Shown here one piece after another: positions 15,610 through 33,518 of a stretch of 51,224 nucleotides of DNA; the stretch's first letter is position 1, and every line of letters begins with the position of its first letter. The notes beneath the pieces are model-generated. The model did no database searches. It had not been told where the DNA came from and saw only the letters and a list, made by a program, of their open reading frames with translations. Both the position numbers and the translations under genes were made by a program. This stretch comes from Nitrospirota bacterium (GTDB lineage Bacteria > Nitrospirota > Thermodesulfovibrionia > Thermodesulfovibrionales > Dissulfurispiraceae), in NCBI GenBank assembly GCA_009773415.1, contig WSNO01000027.1:1-51224 (forward strand), written 5' to 3'.

Positions 15610-15967
15610 TTTTTGCGCTATCTATCTTCTTCGTCAGTTCCTGAATCTCCACCGGCTTCATGACAAAATCAACTATAAGTCCGTCGTGAATCCAGTTCTC
15701 TGTTTGCAGTGACCCCTGCCCCGAGAGCAGTATGATCGCAACGGTGGAATCGACCTGCCTTACCGCACGCGCAAGATCATTTCCTGGCATCCCGGGAAGG
15801 TGCAGATCAATGACCATGACCTCCGGTGCCTCACGGCTGACAGCCTCCAGCGCTTCCGGAGCGCTATAGACCGATCTTGCCCGATAATGCCTCATATTCA
15901 GCCTCCTGGCGAGCGTCTGTGCCAGATCCGCCTCGTCATCGACCAGAAGCACGTTTGCGCGTTTCAT
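15548..15967 (-). CDS. Single-domain response regulator (receiver)
   Basis: 139 residues, essentially one receiver domain: LLVDDEADLAQTLARRL at the start, phospho-acceptor Asp in VMVIDLHLPGMPG, the Ser in IILLSGQG and the Lys in DFVMKPVE. A charged tail of about 20 residues follows. There is no output domain. Its ATG overlaps the original stop of the upstream kinase gene (TAATG), so they were translationally coupled. With the degenerate kinase and the USP-receiver fusion it forms a small phosphorelay-like set inside one operon. Confidence 0.9.
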   Translation of the reverse strand: MKRANVLLVDDEADLAQTLARRLNMRHYRARSVYSAPEALEAVSREAPEVMVIDLHLPGMPGNDLARAVRQVDSTVAIILLSGQGSLQTENWIHDGLIVDFVMKPVEIQELTKKIDSAKNEHDARCARKDGERGKHGQA

Positions 15968-17696
15968 TATCCGTTCGCCTGGACGTTCGCACTGAGCGGG
16001 AGAATGATGGTAAACGTCGTTCCCTTGTGCAAAACACTGTCAACCTCAATCGTTCCGCCAAGTCGCTTGATGATGCCGTATGACAGGGAAAGCCCGAGTC
16101 CCGTGCCCCTTCCCTTCTCTTTTGTCGTAAAAAACGAATTCCGGCGCCGTCATCCCGAATCACGATCTTCAGTCCGCCCTCGGTCGCTGTCATAGTCGAC
16201 AAGCCAATTTCTCCGCCGTCTTTGACTGCGTCCATAGCATTGTTTGCAATATTCAGAAAGACCTGCTGCAACAAGCCCCGATCGCTCTCAATGTGCGGCA
16301 GCTTGTCGTCAAGATTCAGTTCGAGCCTGATATTTCTTACCACAATCTCACGCTCGAGAAACCCGACGACCTCACGCAAAACCTCATTCACATTAATCTG
16401 CTCAATGTCGATCTCCATGCGCCGGGCAAAACCGAGCAGTCGGTGGGTAATCGTCCGGCATCGTCCGACGCTGTCGGAGATAGCGTTCACCAACGGCAAA
16501 AACTCCTTCTGGCATCCGCTTGATTCCGGGTGCACCTCAAATAAATCCTTGATTAGTCCCGCTTTTTCATTGATGATGGCCAGCGGATTGTTGATTTCAT
16601 GCGCCACGCCGGTTGCGAGGCGTCCGATAGATGCGAGTTTGGCTGAGTGCTCGGAATGGGCAATCGCTTCTTCTCTCGCCTTTTCGGTTTCCCGGATGCG
16701 GTTCACAATGCGCTGAGTGGTGCGGTAATTCATCAGAATGCCGATGGCGACAAAGACGATGACCAGGTAGACCGCAAGAATTTCTCTTTTCAGCATGCTC
16801 GCAATTCTCGCCAGTGTAGCCGGCTTGATAATCGCCACCAGCGTCCACGGAGACCCCTGCACCTTAACCGACCCGAAAATCCCTTTCCCGACCACTTCAT
16901 CGTCAATTTTCGCAATAGACACCACTTTTTGCTGAGACAATACCGGCAAAGACACCCGCTCAAGAGCAGCGCCGTGCAGTCGGGAGGTTGTCTGCAGCAT
17001 GTCATTGCCGGCAACCAGGAATGCGTCATCACGATCACTGAGTTCAATCTCCGCGACAAACCGGGTCAGTGTCTCGACATCAAACGATGCCCGGAGAATC
17101 CAGAAGCCTTCGCGCCCGGGCATCTCCTGTCGGACCGCGATGATGTAATGCAAAATATTCCGGTCGCCGGGGAACACCTGGCTGATGGCGACACCATGCA
17201 CCTTCGCCCGGATAAACCAGTCGTGATTCGCATAGTTGCTGCTCTTGTCGGCATAGGGACCTGCGTACGATACCCGCTTCCCGCCGGAGCTCAAAACTTC
17301 AAGATCTATCAGTTCCGGAAATTCCTGCTTGCTCTTCCGGAAAATGGTCCTGAGCGACTGCTCCTTCGAAAGCGCTCCATACGAATGCACTGATGCAAAA
17401 TAGCGGGTGCTCGATACCCGATCCTGCAGGAAGGACTCAAGCCCTTCCTGCGCATGCTCCATCTGCCAGCGCAGCTGACGGGAGAAGTCATCGACCAGAA
17501 CCGCGTGCAGCCAGAAGAAGCAGACGGCGGTCACAATCAGCAACGGAACGCCGGCGAGGGTGCCGACCGTAAAAAAAATACGCACTTTCAGGCTTTTATA
17601 GCGATCGTTCCGAATAGCAGCCGCAGTTCGGATGGGAGACAGAAGCATGTCTTTTGCTGAGCCCAGGCGAGTGTCTGTGGTCTGATCTTCAGGCAT
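15967..17696 (-). pseudogene. Cache-domain sensor histidine kinase, broken by an internal deletion
   Basis: The first 520 or so residues read cleanly. A membrane helix lies at about 39-68, a large periplasmic Cache sensor at about 70-295, with YAGPYADKSSNYANHDWF in the middle, and a second helix at about 305-328. The kinase core follows with the H box [14 protein letters not shown] and N box QQVFLNIANNAMDAVKDGG. After DDGAGI the frame changes. The expected linker up to [20 protein letters not shown] is missing, and only two bases (16135-16136) separate ATT from the TTTTTT of the next box. In the other frame the protein then runs to a normal end at 15967 with the stop overlapping the next gene. 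About 31 bases seem lost. This is either a real pseudogene or a sequence error. Confidence 0.85.
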
Positions 17697-18585: not shown

Positions 18586-20235
18586 CTACCTCCCTCTGAA
18601 TCTTTCATGAATTTTTTTTGTGAGATACAACAGCTCTTCACTCTTCAGCACATAGGAAACGGCGAGATACAGTCCGATTGATCCGCATACGGCACCGCTT
18701 AAAAAGATCGCTTTCAGGCCGGCCTGTCCGCTGGTGGTCCAGAGTTCACTCCGGGTTGCAACCCAGCCCGCGATGCCCATAACGGCGGCAGCAGCGCATG
18801 TTTTTGCAAATGACCGGACTATGCGTTTCGTCCCGATGCCTCCGAGCTTATCCCGGAGAAAATAAAAGAGCAGCAGGAAATTCACCGCTGCGGCTATCGA
18901 GTTTGCCAATGCAAGTCCGTTATGCTGCATGGGTCCCATGAGCGCGACACTGGCGATGACATTGATAATGACACCGCACGCTGCAATCTTCACCGGAGTC
19001 TTCGTGTCCTGCATCGCATAAAATGTTGACGTGATCGTCCGAACGCCGACGATTGCCCAGATACCGACTGCATAATACATCAGAGCCTGCGCTGTATTGA
19101 TTGATGCCGCATGGGTGAACTCACCCCGCTGAAAAAGCGTATTCACAATCGGCATCTGAAGAGCAATCAGTCCCGCCATTGCCGGAACCGTAATGAAGAA
19201 AAGCAGCCGCAGCGCAAAGGAAAAATCCTCTTTCAACAAGCCGAGCTCTTTCTTTGCCGCATGCTCGGACAACGCCGGAAGAATCGCCATGCCCATTGCA
19301 ACACCAAATATGCCTATCGGGAACTGGATCAGCCGCATGGAATAATACAGGTAGGTAATGCTGCCGTCAGACAGGTATGAAGCCAGGATGGTGCTGACAA
19401 AGATGTTGATCTGGGCGACTGCCATGCCGAATGTTGCCGGAATGACAAGAGTTCCGATACGCCGAAGCCCCGGATGGGAGAAAAGTGGTGAGGCGTGAGG
19501 CGTGAGGCGTGAGGCGTCTTTTGCTGGATTCTGGCCTCCTGACTCCTGACTCCTCTCTCCTGCCTTCTCACTTCTGAAGAACGTAAACCCTTGCCGCCAG
19601 AACGCAGGCACCTGAAAAAGAAACTGCACCAGGCCGCCAAGCGCAATGCCTATGGCGACCGCTATGATGGGATTTGCAAACTGTGATGCCAGTGTAACGA
19701 TACATACTATTGTCACCACATTCAGCAGAGCCGGAGCGAGCGCCGGAATAAAGAAAACGCCGCGCGTGTTCAGCGCTCCCATCGCCAGTGATGCCAGGCT
19801 GATGAAGAGCAGGAAGGGGAACATGATGCGGGTCAGCAGAACGGCATCGGCAAACTTCACCGGTTCATGCACAAATCCGGGGGCTATCAGCGACACTATG
19901 ACCGGAGCGAAAATTATGCCAAGGATGCACACTGCTCCGACAACAAGCAGAACGACGGCAAGGACTGCTCTGACGAGACGGTTGGCCGCTTCCCTGCCTT
20001 CTTTTGTCTGCGTTTCTGTCAGAACCGGAACGAAAGCCGCCGACATCGAACCTTCCGCAAAAAGTTCTCGCAGCAGATTGGGAATACGAAATGCAACAAA
20101 AAAAACATCCGACTTGGCCGATGCCCCGAAGTAGCCGGCCAGAATCATGTCCTTGATATATCCGAGAATGCGGCTTATGAGCGTAGCAGCAGACATGACG
20201 CCTGCTGCCCGTGCAATCTTCCCTTGTGCGCTCAA
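18586..20235 (-). CDS. murJ: Lipid II flippase MurJ (MviN family), with a repeat-derived insertion
   Basis: 549 residues with about 14 membrane helices. Family features include the start RAAGVMSAATLISRILGYIKD, LRELFAEGSMSAAFVPVL, and helix pairs through to the C-terminus. It flips the peptidoglycan precursor lipid II across the cytoplasmic membrane. Translation probably begins at TTG (20235) with GGAG seven bases upstream. Between about residues 220 and 252, in a cytoplasmic loop, sits a low-complexity segment (SQESGGQNPAKDASRLTPHA) encoded by 7-base repeats; homologs normally lack it. The insertion keeps the frame open. The gene sits between glgP and the MBL hydrolase in one orientation. Confidence 0.92.
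   Translation of the reverse strand: MSAQGKIARAAGVMSAATLISRILGYIKDMILAGYFGASAKSDVFFVAFRIPNLLRELFAEGSMSAAFVPVLTETQTKEGREAANRLVRAVLAVVLLVVGAVCILGIIFAPVIVSLIAPGFVHEPVKFADAVLLTRIMFPFLLFISLASLAMGALNTRGVFFIPALAPALLNVVTIVCIVTLASQFANPIIAVAIGIALGGLVQFLFQVPAFWRQGFTFFRSEKAGERSQESGGQNPAKDASRLTPHASPLFSHPGLRRIGTLVIPATFGMAVAQINIFVSTILASYLSDGSITYLYYSMRLIQFPIGIFGVAMGMAILPALSEHAAKKELGLLKEDFSFALRLLFFITVPAMAGLIALQMPIVNTLFQRGEFTHAASINTAQALMYYAVGIWAIVGVRTITSTFYAMQDTKTPVKIAACGVIINVIASVALMGPMQHNGLALANSIAAAVNFLLLFYFLRDKLGGIGTKRIVRSFAKTCAAAAVMGIAGWVATRSELWTTSGQAGLKAIFLSGAVCGSIGLYLAVSYVLKSEELLYLTKKIHERFRGR
19485..19575. repeat. Heptamer-repeat element inserted in murJ
   Basis: TGAGGCG occurs four times in tandem (19489-19516), and CTCCTGA occurs twice plus a partial copy (19536 onward). 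Together they make a two-part low-complexity block of about 90 bases. A 7-base period shifts reading frame with each copy, so the encoded peptide is not itself repetitive. It lies in a loop region of murJ and does not break the frame. A compositionally similar block is found in prmC. Confidence 0.8.
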
Positions 20236-20251: not shown

Positions 20252-22601
20252 CTAGCTTTTTACTGAAGGGAGATTCCAGATATTGTCTGCATACTCCTTG
20301 ATTGCTCGATCACTGGAAAAGAATCCGGACCGGGCAACGTTCAGAATCGCCATTTTGGTCCACAGGTCGCGATCTCGGTAGACAGCTGCGACACGATCCT
20401 GACAGGCGACATAGGACGCATAGTCCGCAAGCACAAAAAACCAGTCAACGTCGAGCAGCGAACGCACGATGGGATGAAACAAGCCCGGATTCTCAGGCGA
20501 GAAGTGTCCCTCCAGCAGCTGGTTGATCGCCTGCCGCAATTCCGGATCCTGCGCATAATAATCCTGAGGACGGTAGGAACTTCTCTTTGCCATGACTTCC
20601 TCGGTAGTGAGTCCGAAGAGAAAGAAGTTTTCCTCGCCCACTTCCTGGCGAATCTCGACGTTCGCACCGTCGAGCGTCCCGATGGTAAGCGCTCCGTTCA
20701 GGGTGAATTTCATGTTGCCGGTGCCGGAGGCTTCAAACCCCGCTGTCGAAATCTGCTCCGACAACTCGGCTGCGGGCATGATGCGCTGCGCAAGCGATAC
20801 CGAGTAGTTCGGCACAAAGAGGAGCTGGAGCTTTTCGCGGGCGATCTGGTTGGCAGAGATGGTGGCGCCGACCGAATGAATCAGCTTGATGATGAGCTTG
20901 CACATCCAGTACCCCGGCGCCGACTTGCCGGCAAGGAGAACCGTGCGCGGGACAAATGTTTGATCAACCCGCCCCTCACGCAAACGGTTATACAGCGTGA
21001 TGACATGCAGGATGTTGAGCATCTGGCGTTTATATTCGTGCATGCGCTTCACCTGACAGTCGAGCATGAAGTGCGGGCGGAACGCTGTCGTCGGCAAATG
21101 GTTCGAGCGCCCGGAGTTCCGCAAGATCATACATCCACCGGTCGCCGATTGCTTCAGTGACAAGCGCCGAGAGGCGGGGGTTTGCCTCGATCAGCCATCG
21201 CCGGTGCGTAATGCCGTTTGTAACATTAGTGAACCTGTCCGGAAAGACAGCGTGGAAATCCGGGAAAACGTTCGTCTTGAGCAGATCCGAGTGCAGCGCC
21301 GAAACACCGTTCACCGCGTGGCTGCCGACGATTGCAAGCCGGGCCATGTGGACACGCCGGTCGCCGTCGCCGGTGATGATCGCCGTCTGTGCGATGCGAT
21401 GAGGATTGTCCGGAAACTGCATGCCGACTTCGATCTGAAAACGCCGGTCGATCTCCTGAATAATCTGGAGATGGCGCGGCAAAAGATTGCCTAAAAGTCC
21501 CTCCGACCATGTTTCAAGCGCTTCGGGAAGCACCGTGTGATTTGTGTAGGCAAATGTATTCCTGGTGATGTCCCACGATTCCTCCCACGAAATGCCTTCC
21601 TGGTCAACCAGCACATGCATCAGTTCGGCGATTGCGATGGTGGGGTGCGTGTCGTTGAGCTGAATGGCAACCTTGTTCGGAAATTCGGCATAAGATCGGT
21701 GGAACTTCCGGTAGCGGCGAATGATGTCGCGCAGCGTTGCGGAAACAAAGAAATACTGCTGCTTCAGTCGCAGCTCCTTGCCCGCAGTCGTATGATCATC
21801 AGGGTAGAGAACCTTCGAAATATTTTCGCTCTGGTTCTTGTCTTCCATCGCCTTCATATAGTCGCCGCTGTTGAAATAGCTGAGATTGAATTCACGGGTC
21901 GCCTTGGCGGACCAGAGACGAAGCGTATTGACGATGCCGTTGCGATACCCGGGAACCGGATAGTCATAGGCCATCGCCATGACTTCTTCCGTATCGGTCC
22001 AAAGCATACGATGGCGTCCGCTGCCGCAATTTATGGCATCCACCTTACCGTAAAAACGGACAGGATACAGAATCTCCGCGTGCGGGAACTCCCATCTGTT
22101 GGTATATCGGAGCCAGTTATCCGGAATCTCGACCTGATACCCATCCTTGATCTTCTGGGCGAAAATGCCGAACTCATAGCGGATGCCGTAACCGTAGGCC
22201 GGATACTCGAGCGTTGCGAGAGAGTCGAGATAACAGGCTGCGAGACGGCCAAGTCCGCCATTGCCGAGACCGGCATCAAATTCGAGTTCGACAAGATCCT
22301 GATAGGACAACCCGAAGATGTCAAGCGCCTGCGCATACTGGCCCATAAGGCCAAGATTGTTTACATAGCTGTTGAGCAGCCTGCCGAGCAGAAACTCAAG
22401 CGACATATAGTAGACACGCTTTGCATTTACCTGATAATACTTCTGCTGCGTCTTGATCCAGCGCTCCGAAAGCTGATCCCGCACTGAAAGCACGACAGCA
22501 TCGAACTTGTCACGCTGGGTCGCTGAATACGCATCCTTTGCCAATGAGAAGGTAAGGTGTTCTAGCAGCGATTCCTGAAAAACTATGCTTGACCGTGGCA
22601 T
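20252..22601 (-). pseudogene. glgP: Glycogen/maltodextrin phosphorylase, frameshifted
   Basis: The N-terminal three fifths read from an ATG at 22601, preceded by GGAGG, through family motifs such as YYMSLEFLLGRLL, GLGNGGLGRLAACYLDSLAT and GYGIRYEFGIF, to LRALEPFADD near 21090. The frame then shifts. The C-terminal part resumes near DCQVKRMHEYKRQMLNILHV and carries the phosphorylase core, with VSLAQRIMPAAELSEQISTA, GTGNMKFTLNGALTIGTLDG and ending in NIWNLPSVKS. Compared with family members, about 25 residues between PFADD and the QVKRMHEYKR box are missing, along with the frame. A working enzyme would release glucose-1-phosphate from storage glucan. As written the gene is broken; a sequence or assembly error is a real alternative. 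Confidence 0.85.
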
Positions 22602-22641
22602 CACAACCTCCGCGCATTTTCTGTATGGAAAACAGTGCTTT

Positions 22642-22670
22642 ACAATACCATTTTTCGGCCGGCATTGCAA
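22642..22670 (-). promoter_or_regulatory. Candidate sigma-70 promoter for glgP
   Basis: On the minus strand, TTGCAA (22665-22670) and TATTGT (22642-22647) are separated by 17 bases, each matching four of six consensus positions. It lies about 40 bases before the glgP start. The rest of the 222-base divergent region toward the fluoride channel shows no other convincing site. Confidence 0.35.
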
Positions 22671-22823
22671 AAGTTCCCGCAAGAAACCGACCTGTCTGTT
22701 TTCTTGTCTGGCGAATATGAACGCCACCCTTCAAAGGAGAACTCCGCATTCTTTTCAGCTTCAACCTGCACGAACGCCCCTGCACAGCAGCCTTTTTTCT
22801 TCCTGCTCTGATAAACTCAAACA

Positions 22824-25884: not shown

Positions 25885-26823
25885 TCAGTTTTTCAGCACA
25901 CTTGCCGTTTCAAGCTGCTCAGCACTGAGATGTCCGACAAAAAAGCGCCTAACTCCTGCGTAGTCCAAAATGCAGCGAATGCCGACGAATGCATTCGTAC
26001 GCGCCATCCCTATGGCGTCATCAGCTTGATCGTGACCAAGCTCCATGATAAGTACCCCCCCTGGTTTAAGAAAGGCAGGAGCTTCCGACAGAATTCTGCG
26101 GTGGAAGTCGAGTCCGTCCTGACCGCCGTCCAGTGCGCTCAGAGGTTCGTGCAGTTTTATTTCACTCTGCAGACCCTGGATATCCGATGTCTTAATATAG
26201 GGAGGATTGGCAATAATGCAGGTAAATTTCTGCCCGGCAAACGGGGCGAACAGATCCCCTTCAATAAACATCACAGTATCGATCGCATTGCCGGCAGCAT
26301 TTTTTTTTGCATACTGCAATGCAGCAGGCGAAATGTCAGAGCCGACAACCGCCGCGTTGGGAAATGCCTGTGCGAGAGAAAGAGCGATGCATCCGCTGCC
26401 GGTGCAGAGATCGAGAATAGTCATAGGCGATGAATTATGCGTCACGTGTGACGAGGCGACACTGCGCCCTTGCGCTTGCCGTTCTTCTGCCTTTTGGCTT
26501 CTGAGCTGCTTGATTGTTTCTTCAACCAGCAACTCCGTTTCCGGACGCGGGATAAGCACGCCGGGACCGACGGCGATGCGCAGGCCCATAAATTCGAGCT
26601 GCCCGATGATGTAATGGATCGGCTCTCCTGCGGCACGCCGCTCAGCATACTGTTGAATGGTTTGAATCGATTTAGCAGAAACTTCTGCCGGAGATGTGCA
26701 GAGCTGTGCACGAGAGAGGTGCAGAAGCGACGACACTATCAGTTCGGCCTCTTTTGCAGAATCGGCAACGCCGTGGTCGCGAAGCCGCTGTGCGATGTCC
26801 TGCACGAGGGCACCGATAATCAC
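25885..26823 (-). CDS. prmC: Release-factor glutamine methyltransferase PrmC (HemK), with a low-complexity insertion
   Basis: 312 residues. The N-terminal substrate-recognition domain (about 1-85) is followed by a SAM-dependent methyltransferase with [15 protein letters not shown] and the catalytic NPPY in [13 protein letters not shown]. It methylates the Gln of the GGQ motif in release factors, and the gene for RF1 is directly upstream with its stop overlapping this GTG start (GTGA). Between the linker [10 protein letters not shown] and the SAM-binding strand TILDL lies an extra segment ([20 protein letters not shown]) that looks repeat-derived. A run of eight or more T at about 26300 is a possible slippage site, but the frame is intact. 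Confidence 0.93.
26425..26512. repeat. Low-complexity insertion in prmC
   Basis: This block has a purine-rich half and a half with GTCACGTGTGAC (a 12-base perfect palindrome around 26441-26452), in the same two-part style as the heptamer element in murJ. It falls exactly in the variable linker between the recognition domain and the methyltransferase, and the frame stays open. It is not a copy of the murJ element at the base level as far as I can see, so a shared origin is an inference. Confidence 0.5.
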
Positions 26824-31442: not shown

Positions 31443-33518
31443 CTATCTGTTGTACTTGATCAAAAGAGGAGCAATCAGCAGAGCCACGATGTTGATAACC
31501 TTGATCATCGGGTTGATTGCCGGACCTGCGGTGTCCTTGTAAGGATCGCCGACGGTGTCGCCGGTGACGGCTGCTTTATGGCCGTCGCTGCCCTTTTTGT
31601 GCGTAACGCCCTTGTCGTCGGTCACGCCGTCTTCAAATATTTTCTTGCCGTTGTCCCATGCGCCGCCGCCGCTCGTCATGGCGATGGCCTGGAAGAGACC
31701 GGTAAGAATGCTGCCGATGAGCATGCCGCCCAGCGCTTCCCTGCCGAGTACGAAGCCGACTAATATCGGTGCGAGAACCGGTATAAGGGCAGGCCACATC
31801 ATCTCCTTAATGGCTGACTGGGTGACGATATCAACACACTTGCCGTACTCCGGCTTTCCGGTGCCTTCCATAATGCCCGGAATTTCGCGGAACTGTCTGC
31901 GGACCTCGTCGACGACGCCGCCCGCGGCCCTACCGACCGCAAGCATCAGCAGACCGCCGAAATAGTAAGGAATAAGTCCGCCGATAAAGAGTCCCGCGAT
32001 AATCATCGGGTCTGAAAGATCGAACTTGATTACCCCGGGGAACGACCTCGAATATTCGGCAAACAGAACAAGTGCAGCGAGGCCTGCTGAGCCGATGGCA
32101 TATCCCTTGGTAACAGCCTTGGTCGTGTTGCCGACTGCATCGAGAGGGTCGGTAACTGCGCGGACGCTCTCGGGAAGCCCCGCCATTTCAGCGATGCCGC
32201 CTGCGTTGTCAGTAATCGGACCATAGGAGTCAATTGCAACAACGATGCCGGTCATCGAAAGCATCGAGACCGCTGAAAGGGCTATCGCGAAAAGACCGCC
32301 GGCCGCATTGCCGGCAAACCCGCCGCCGAGGGAATATGAGCCGAGGATCGCTCCTACTATGGTAAGCGCCGGCAGTGCGGTCGCTTCCATGCTCATGGCA
32401 AGACCAGCAATAACGTTCGTGCCGTGGCCGGTGAGACTGGCTTTGGCAATGATCTTAACAGGCCTGTATTCCTTGCCGGTATAATACTCGGTAATCCAGA
32501 CGATAAGTCCGGTCAGGACAAGACCGATAACCGCGCAGAGGAAAACGTTCAGTACCGGCATCGTCTGCTGACTGGCTGGCAGAAGAGTATAGAACCAGCT
32601 CGTGGCGAAGTAGAACGCAATAGCGGCAAGAATACCCGCGACCGCCAGTCCCTTGTAAAGTGCTCCCATGATGTACTGACCGGCGCCCATTCTAACAAAA
32701 TAGGTTCCGATGATGGATGCGATGATGGATATGCCGCCAAGCAGAAGCGGATATTCGACCCAGAGGCTGCTGGCGCCAAAAACAGACTTGGCAAGCAGCA
32801 TCGCAGCAACAATGGTCACCGTATAGGTTTCGTACAGGTCAGCCGCCATGCCTGCGCAGTCACCGACGTTGTCACCGACGTTGTCAGCGATGACGGCAGG
32901 GTTGCGCGGGTCGTCTTCCGGAATTCCCGCTTCAACTTTACCGACGAGGTCAGCGCCGACGTCGGCGGCCTTGGTATAAATACCGCCTGCGATACGGGCA
33001 AAGACCGACATGAGCGAGCAGCCGAAGCCGAGGCCTATCAGGGCGTGGAACGCCGTCTCTACGTCAACTGATGCCTTTGCAATCATATAAAACCCGGCAA
33101 TGCCAAGCAGTCCAAGGGCGACAACCATAACACCCGTAACTGAACCGCCCTTGAATGCTACGGAAAGAGCTTCCTGAAGGCCCTTCTTGGCAGCTTCAGT
33201 AGTTCTCACGTTCGACATAACCGTGACAACCATGCCGAAATAGCCTGCCGCAGCTGAACCTATTACGCCGATTACGAATCCGATAGCAGTCCAGAGACCG
33301 AGTCCTATGGCAATGATAGCGGATAATACAACGGCTACGATTGCGACGGTCTTGTACTCGCGCGCAAGGAATGCCTCAGCGCCTTCCTTGATTGCCTCAG
33401 AAATCTCGATCATTTTGGCGGATCCGGTCGGCAGACCGGCGACCCATGATTTGGTGACAAATGAATAAATAATGCCTATTGCGCCGCAAATCAGGGCAAA
33501 AATAAGTATTGGTGTCAT
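31443..33518 (-). CDS. hppA: Membrane proton-translocating pyrophosphatase (K+-independent type)
   Basis: 691 residues with about 16 membrane helices. Catalytic loops are intact: the PPi-binding region around [20 protein letters not shown] and the acidic [17 protein letters not shown], plus [18 protein letters not shown] near the end. The subtype marker reads [14 protein letters not shown], with Lys at about residue 467. Potassium-dependent enzymes have Ala at that place, so this is predicted to be the K+-independent proton-pumping form. It splits PPi and stores the energy as an ion gradient. It lies 140 bases after qmoC in the same orientation, so it fits removal of PPi made by Sat. GGAGG precedes the start by about 12 bases. 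Confidence 0.96.

Follow-up and report, generated by a model that had tools for sequence, protein, structure and literature searches.

The 51,224-nt contig WSNO01000027.1 of a Nitrospirota bacterium (assembly GCA_009773415.1; Dissulfurispiraceae, Thermodesulfovibrionales), the whole of which is called the window here, carries the lipid II flippase gene murJ, and inside this gene lie two tandem arrays of 7-base units (heptamers). The segment is probably an opposite-strand pair of heptamer arrays in a tolerant linker, where a copying process that moves in 7-base steps writes arrays and selection filters them. Such arrays form a class, often with a GTNA core, inside many housekeeping genes of this family of Thermodesulfovibrionales (Nitrospirota), and the pair found in murJ is recent and lineage-specific.

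Heptamer arrays within murJ

The murJ product matches Pfam PF03023 with an E-value of 6.4e-124 over residues 33-495, the repeat site included. Against MurJ chains of the PDB, residues 10-217 and 252-463 were aligned and the repeat segment between these two halves was left unaligned; we take this linker to be the cytoplasmic loop that joins helices 6 and 7. Along the coding strand, GTCAGGA units form a purine-rich array, after which come a spacer and a pyrimidine-rich GCCTCAC array, so that the two arrays are of opposite strands (Table 1). The original prediction had counted four copies of the perfect unit, which agrees with the 4.3 reported by Tandem Repeats Finder, and two to three copies of CTCCTGA, whereas that array proved longer and more diverged. 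The 7-base periodicity of murJ is not due to chance. The repeat region is the top place of the window at lag 7, with 30 of 42 positions matched, while the maxima of 20 Markov resamples were 21-24, with one of 27. Shuffling of the 114-nt linker gave p = 0.0005 for lag 7 and p values of about 0.7 for lags 5, 6, and 8.

It had been pointed out that a 7-base unit should disturb the frame, although the frame is open. Tandem heptamers do lie inside murJ without breaking it, the 549-aa frame being open throughout, and the puzzle has a simple explanation. Three heptamers make seven codons and an array gives the same seven residues in any frame; both arrays are stop-free in all three frames of the coding strand only, as both units contain TGA on the other strand; and the net difference in linker length from the sister species (114 vs. 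60 nt) is 54 nt, a multiple of three.

Elsewhere in the genome of 2.46 Mb, the exact GTGAGGC doublet has no second place, while diverged GTCAGAA or TTCAGAA arrays occur at about eight further places. A search of this genome with a degenerate three-unit pattern and 3 mismatches gave 82 matches vs. 64 for the reversed control and, with the number so near to that of the control, only the best-matching places were counted as real.

Linkers and loops among the relatives

The murJ comparison comprised 60 genomes, one per species and most of them drafts, of which 57 matched and yielded 30 loci; after one locus with an inner stop (L053) was dropped, 29 linkers remained, our own included. Period 7 was found at p ≤ 0.003 in 9 of them, all nine being among the 22 of the own family, whereas lags 5, 6, and 8 never reached p ≤ 0.003 in the murJ or ruvC loops. 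The array was not seen in the sister species of the same genus (G001), in G009, in G020, or in any of the 7 murJ loops outside the family. The units also differ between species: apart from GTGAGGC and GTCAGGA in our own genome (G000), they are GAAGCCA and CTCATCA in G010, GAAGACA in G006, GTCAGCC in G002, GTAACAA in G016, AAATTTC in G013 and G022, and GTCAGAA in G027 and G011. A murJ tree made without the linker (26 of the 29 loci) calls for 6 or more changes in array presence, 4 or more of these on well supported branches alone, and for 9 changes of unit; the own species is nested within the array-less G001, G009, and G020. Two outcomes had been named that would speak against the original prediction, namely that the segment is kept in distant relatives or that the heptamers occur nowhere else. 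The segment is not kept, and heptamers do occur elsewhere, the exact GTGAGGC doublet alone being unique within its own genome; heptamer arrays are lineage-specific and present both in coding regions and between genes. A separate feature was observed in the murJ linkers of G027 and G026 (L038 and L039) and also at L097, L108, and L112, where an in-frame palindrome of C-runs and G-runs (C7..C7..G7..G7) directly follows the GTCAGAA array; its arrangement is similar to that of the intrastrand triplex motifs reported in the part of PMC4666352 available.

Two further loops behave in the same manner. In ruvC, the loop after the GYGLI motif was compared in 29 cases (G034 was missed by the motif, the G001 fragment was not used, and L140 of G030 was added) and has period 7 at p ≤ 0.001 in 5 of them, with many units. 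The prmC set consisted of 27 loops, G034 being missed and two small loci not used, and period 7 was significant at p ≤ 0.003 in 9 of the 27 genomes, again with many different units. Specifically, the prmC loop of the sister species (L440) holds a significant TCCGGAA-type array, although its murJ has none. Taking the murJ, ruvC, and prmC loops together, doublets of the GTVA core at step 7 were present in 13 of 85 loops, as were doublets of its complement TBAC, with shuffle means of 0.43 and 0.32, respectively; at steps 4, 5, 6, 8, 9, and 10 there were 0 or 1. Five loops clearly show the order known from murJ of the window, first a GTVA and then a TBAC array, since of the seven counted in this order L335 and L439 are overlapping palindromic matches, as is the one pair in reverse order. 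The ruvC loop of G003 (L345), at the place where other genomes have heptamers, contains a long near-perfect in-frame hairpin of another kind, AATTAGGGACACATCCC ... GGGATGTGTCCCTAAT.

Abundance, period spectrum, and host genes

A 400-kb sample of G010 was scanned at lags 4-21 with a score of at least 18, three runs of N being excluded. Lag 7 gave 22 arrays and its harmonic 14 gave 9, followed by 4 at lag 8, 3 at lag 16, and 0-1 at each other lag; the frame-neutral periods are nearly empty (6: 1, 9: 0, 12: 1, 15: 0, 18: 0, 21: 1). Period 7 is thus dominant while the periods that selection in coding DNA would favor are scarce, and therefore the generator itself should be 7-periodic. This bears directly on the view that the arrays are chance short repeats extended by ordinary replication slippage in fast-evolving loops, with nothing special in the unit. 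Their location in variable loops and the several unit types in one genome suit that view, and heptameric repeats are over-represented in bacteria, where slippage has been tied to the polymerase footprint (PMC4692102, in the part available). Slippage in coding DNA, however, should yield periods 3, 6, 9, and 12, which are nearly missing here, and a single genome has the same unit type at many loci: three units of GTSAGRM were matched 257 times, overlaps included, in 42 of 150 relatives, as against 11 matches in 7 of 150 for the reversed control (summed over the listed matches). We therefore consider slippage of this ordinary kind unlikely.

All 22 arrays of the G010 sample are in open frames, and 21 of them in frames of at least 150 aa. 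The host genes, recognized by eye, are ddl, murD, murF, dacA, bioD, thyX, lspA, ileS, murJ (two arrays), hemC, a cusA-type pump, dxr, lpxK, uvrA, mqnC, mqnB, a thioredoxin-like protein, ribD, and others. Pfam confirmed ddl, thyX, hemC, dxr, lpxK, ribD, ruvC (in G018), murJ, and prmC, and an AAA domain is consistent with bioD. In the sister species, 173 kb held 0 arrays at a score of at least 18. Concerning seven relatives, 53 of 60 array sites fall in sense open reading frames (ORFs) with a length of 180 aa or more, and an antisense ORF runs across a single site; ORFs were taken from stop to stop within short stretches, gene names were given partly by eye, and the sites of G003 and G129 are most, not all, of the GTSAGRM matches found there. 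Such sense frames account for 50 of 52 sites in the own family and for 3 of 8 in G129, which belongs to another family. Beyond the order, four units of GTCAGRA occur in at least 119 stretches of bacterial genome contigs and, among the 80 listed, about ten phyla are represented as judged by their titles. Arrays lie in long frames at 5 of 46 loci in cyanobacteria vs. 9 of 9 in Nitrospirota.

Some arrays stand at the start of secreted proteins (L099, L100, L123, L128, and L136), the first array forming the basic stretch and the second, of TCTGTNT type, the hydrophobic core. As observed at these five loci and at L137, arrays seem to supply whole signal peptides, with a basic part of RSQKSEVRS type and then a hydrophobic part of CALSSVFCVLSS type from the TCTGTNT units.

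How the loops change

Close pairs of genomes could be compared at two loci only, trpE and thiD. At trpE, the array of G030 corresponds to about 30 nt of different sequence in G018, the two being 87% identical in this region, and the length differs by a net +3 nt. At thiD, 4 of 5 genomes carry the array; the fifth, G006, shows about 15 nt of unrelated sequence instead and is 21 nt shorter. Neither target duplication nor fixed ends were seen at these two loci; sequence was replaced, so the loops are rewritten and not split by a unit with fixed ends. In the thiD array of G030 (L363), a 24-nt piece, CCCTTCGACTTTATTCAGGGCAGG, was also observed in frame within an array that is intact in the relatives. 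As candidate enzymes, three families were scanned in the 150 relatives, draft genomes among them: RVT_1 (reverse transcriptase) was not found in the array carriers G000, G010, G011, G018, and G027, the Y1 transposase (Y1_Tnp) was not found in G003, G011, and G012, and Ku was not found in some carriers. Each of them is missing in some carriers and therefore none is required.

The segment had originally been taken for a small mobile or expanding repeat able to enter coding regions. Entry into coding regions stands, but a mobile element in the usual sense is not supported, as there are no fixed ends and, at the two loci compared, loops are replaced with no target duplication. We consider it improbable that the arrays are a small non-autonomous element resembling the Rickettsia palindromic elements, copied by a trans-acting enzyme and inserted in frame. 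Many in-frame copies in unrelated genes would agree with it, as would the recurrence of one unit at many loci of a single genome and the position of the opposite-strand second array, which is downstream at 7 of 60 sites and upstream at 0 of 60. Compared with miniature inverted-repeat transposable elements (MITEs) or Rickettsia palindromic elements, however, the arrays share the in-frame presence only: length, ends, and body are not constant, units vary by site and species, and the close pairs display replacement in place of duplication. As products of a retroelement or of a Y1 transposase they would call for an enzyme in the carriers, and the scan described above shows carriers that lack it.

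Other features of the window

Table 1. Positions of murJ, its heptamer arrays, and prmC in the window.
Feature	Position	Strand	Remarks
murJ, lipid II flippase, 549 aa	18586..20235	minus	Start codon TTG as listed; Pfam PF03023
Variable linker of murJ with both arrays, residues 216-253	19477..19590	minus	114 nt vs. 60 nt in sister species G001
First array on the coding strand, GTCAGGA-type (CTCCTGA on the plus strand), about 6 units	19536..19577	minus	Tandem Repeats Finder: CTCCTGA x6.0, 77% match, units diverged
Spacer separating the murJ arrays, 18 nt	19518..19535	minus	
Second array on the coding strand, GTGAGGC x4.3, perfect (GCCTCAC on the coding strand, translated ASRLTPHAS)	19488..19517	plus	Tandem Repeats Finder: 100% match, score 60
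prmC, 312 aa, with a long loop between the N-terminal domain and the methyltransferase domain	25885..26823	minus	Pfam
prmC loop (29 residues), maybe a decayed heptamer insert	26420..26505	minus	Period 7, p 0.20, not significant

The prmC loop of the window was dropped as a second array on account of its p value; it may represent a decayed one. Three further observations concern other parts of the window. Glycogen phosphorylase (20252-22727) is split into two overlapping minus frames, 21030-22727 and 20252-21163, which suggests a frameshift or an assembly error. In the histidine kinase at 15936-17696, the ATPase-domain sequence to be expected toward the C-terminus is lost after VIRDDGAGI, probably through another frameshift. 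Finally, a 12-base tandem repeat, GTCACCGACGTT x2.7, is located at 32859-32890; its period, unlike that of the 7-base arrays, is divisible by three.

Discussion

The account that we favor for the murJ segment, copying in 7-base steps followed by selection, can be put as follows. A DNA copying or repair reaction (polymerase or repair) would realign in steps of 7 bases and so make arrays, which may partly be recopied from units already present elsewhere in the genome. Selection would then retain arrays that preserve the frame, are free of stops, and are hydrophilic when in loops or hydrophobic when in signal peptides, and later point mutations would blur them into ordinary linkers. No period suits coding DNA less than seven does; the dominance of this period therefore points to the way in which arrays are generated, not to selection, and offers a handle for finding the process responsible. 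In most host genes, the array probably has no effect beyond a longer loop. More tentatively, and with considerable doubt, bacteria may possess a hitherto unrecognized, template-reusing copying activity with a fixed 7-base step that overwrites gene stretches, moves favored units between loci, and continually supplies core proteins with new in-frame loops and signal peptides. If true, this would be a route by which proteins acquire new linkers and signal peptides. Here the heptamers are read in frame in genes for the cell wall, tRNA synthetases, recombination, and cofactors, with rapid turnover at the same loops.

Several results weigh against this account. The location of 22 of 22 G010 arrays in genes is little above the bacterial coding fraction, and GTVA or TBAC doublets are present in 9 of these 22, the GTNA core thus being missing from over half. 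Our own genome has 1 array at a score of at least 18 in 400 kb; most of its other arrays are diverged, and several lie upstream of genes. The specificity of the unit is weak outside the order: in viral contigs, the unit gave 39 stretches vs. 22 for the reversed control, which makes the presence of one unit in a huge collection weak evidence, and no element shared across phyla is therefore claimed. As single-stranded DNA, the murJ arrays of the window gave a z of -1.05, with 30 of 200 shuffles folding as well. The "two arms" therefore need not act as a hairpin; that reading was rejected and the imperfect inverted pair is retained as a description only. The corresponding values for G010 were +0.87 in murJ and -3.19 in ruvC, the latter being the sole strong case. 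Additionally, copying from array to array is something that we infer and did not observe, and the generator itself was not found, none of RVT_1, Y1 transposase, and Ku being common to all carriers.

Two explanations are far weaker than those already discussed. According to the original prediction, changes in copy number would switch the frame of murJ, as in a phase-variable contingency locus. This is formally possible, because the gain or loss of 1 or 2 units shifts the frame whereas a change of 3 units keeps it, but it is unsupported and we judge it unlikely in the extreme, because the change of 1-2 units cuts the protein at 284-306 of 549 residues. MurJ is essential, and tolerance of a frame-shifted product is unlikely on that ground; besides, the perfect array is short (4.3 units only), murJ of the sister species lacks it, and arrays also occur in ileS, murD, ddl, ruvC, dxr, and other genes, where off-switching should be lethal or costly. 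Heptanucleotide switches of other bacteria, neuO and hmw1A, are the precedent for it, as far as the available parts of their descriptions go. Equally improbable is a role as sites bound by a global regulator, which has been proposed for the corresponding heptamers in Geobacter metallireducens: opposite-strand paired arrays at variable distance recall class 3 of PMC2700814 in its available part, but the arrays here are inside genes, in frame, and in one orientation, with units that differ between species at the same site.

Comparison with known heptamer systems

Full-text searches of the open-licence literature for the DNA units, for the peptides that they encode, and for heptamers in general brought up no paper recognized as reporting heptamer arrays that lie in frame at the same loops of housekeeping genes, the papers being covered mostly by titles and the starts of abstracts; the papers compared below are likewise represented by parts of their text. 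Like the contingency loci neuO and hmw1A, the arrays consist of 7-base units whose number can alter frame or expression, but those loci serve variable surface or capsule functions, whereas murJ and the other hosts have core functions. Rickettsia palindromic elements, families of about 150 bp each coding a conserved peptide (PMC10969869), are also short repeats kept in frame in unrelated protein genes and readable in the inserted orientation; the heptamer arrays are 7-periodic and have no fixed body, while no 7-base period is reported in the available part of that paper. Heptameric repeats are described as GGGAATC in Xanthomonas and GGGGATT in Nostoc (PMC4692102) and as TAACTGA in Beggiatoaceae and cyanobacteria (PMC4679880), the other strand of the last one including a GTTA core. 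They share with our arrays the genome-wide 7-base tandem units, some convergent inverted pairs, and the lack of a known mechanism, but are described as largely intergenic and are more uniform per genome, whereas ours are mostly in genes. The closest resemblance in sequence is with the class-3 sites of G. metallireducens, for which a consensus MTYCTGA, five tandem heptamers, and eight opposite-strand pairs, one of them between proB and proA, were reported and binding of a regulator was proposed (PMC2700814). The reverse strand of this consensus, KTCAGRA, covers GTCAGGA and GTCAGAA; accordingly, the first murJ array (CTCCTGA) conforms to the class-3 unit and the GTGAGGC array does not, while the arrangement, with GTCAGGA on the minus and GTGAGGC on the plus strand 18 nt apart, corresponds to opposite-strand units at variable distance. 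Unit, tandem repetition, and opposite-strand pairing at variable distance are thus shared with the Geobacter sites, but where the eight pairs were read as regulator sites, the arrays of this family are mostly in genes, in frame, and of many unit types.
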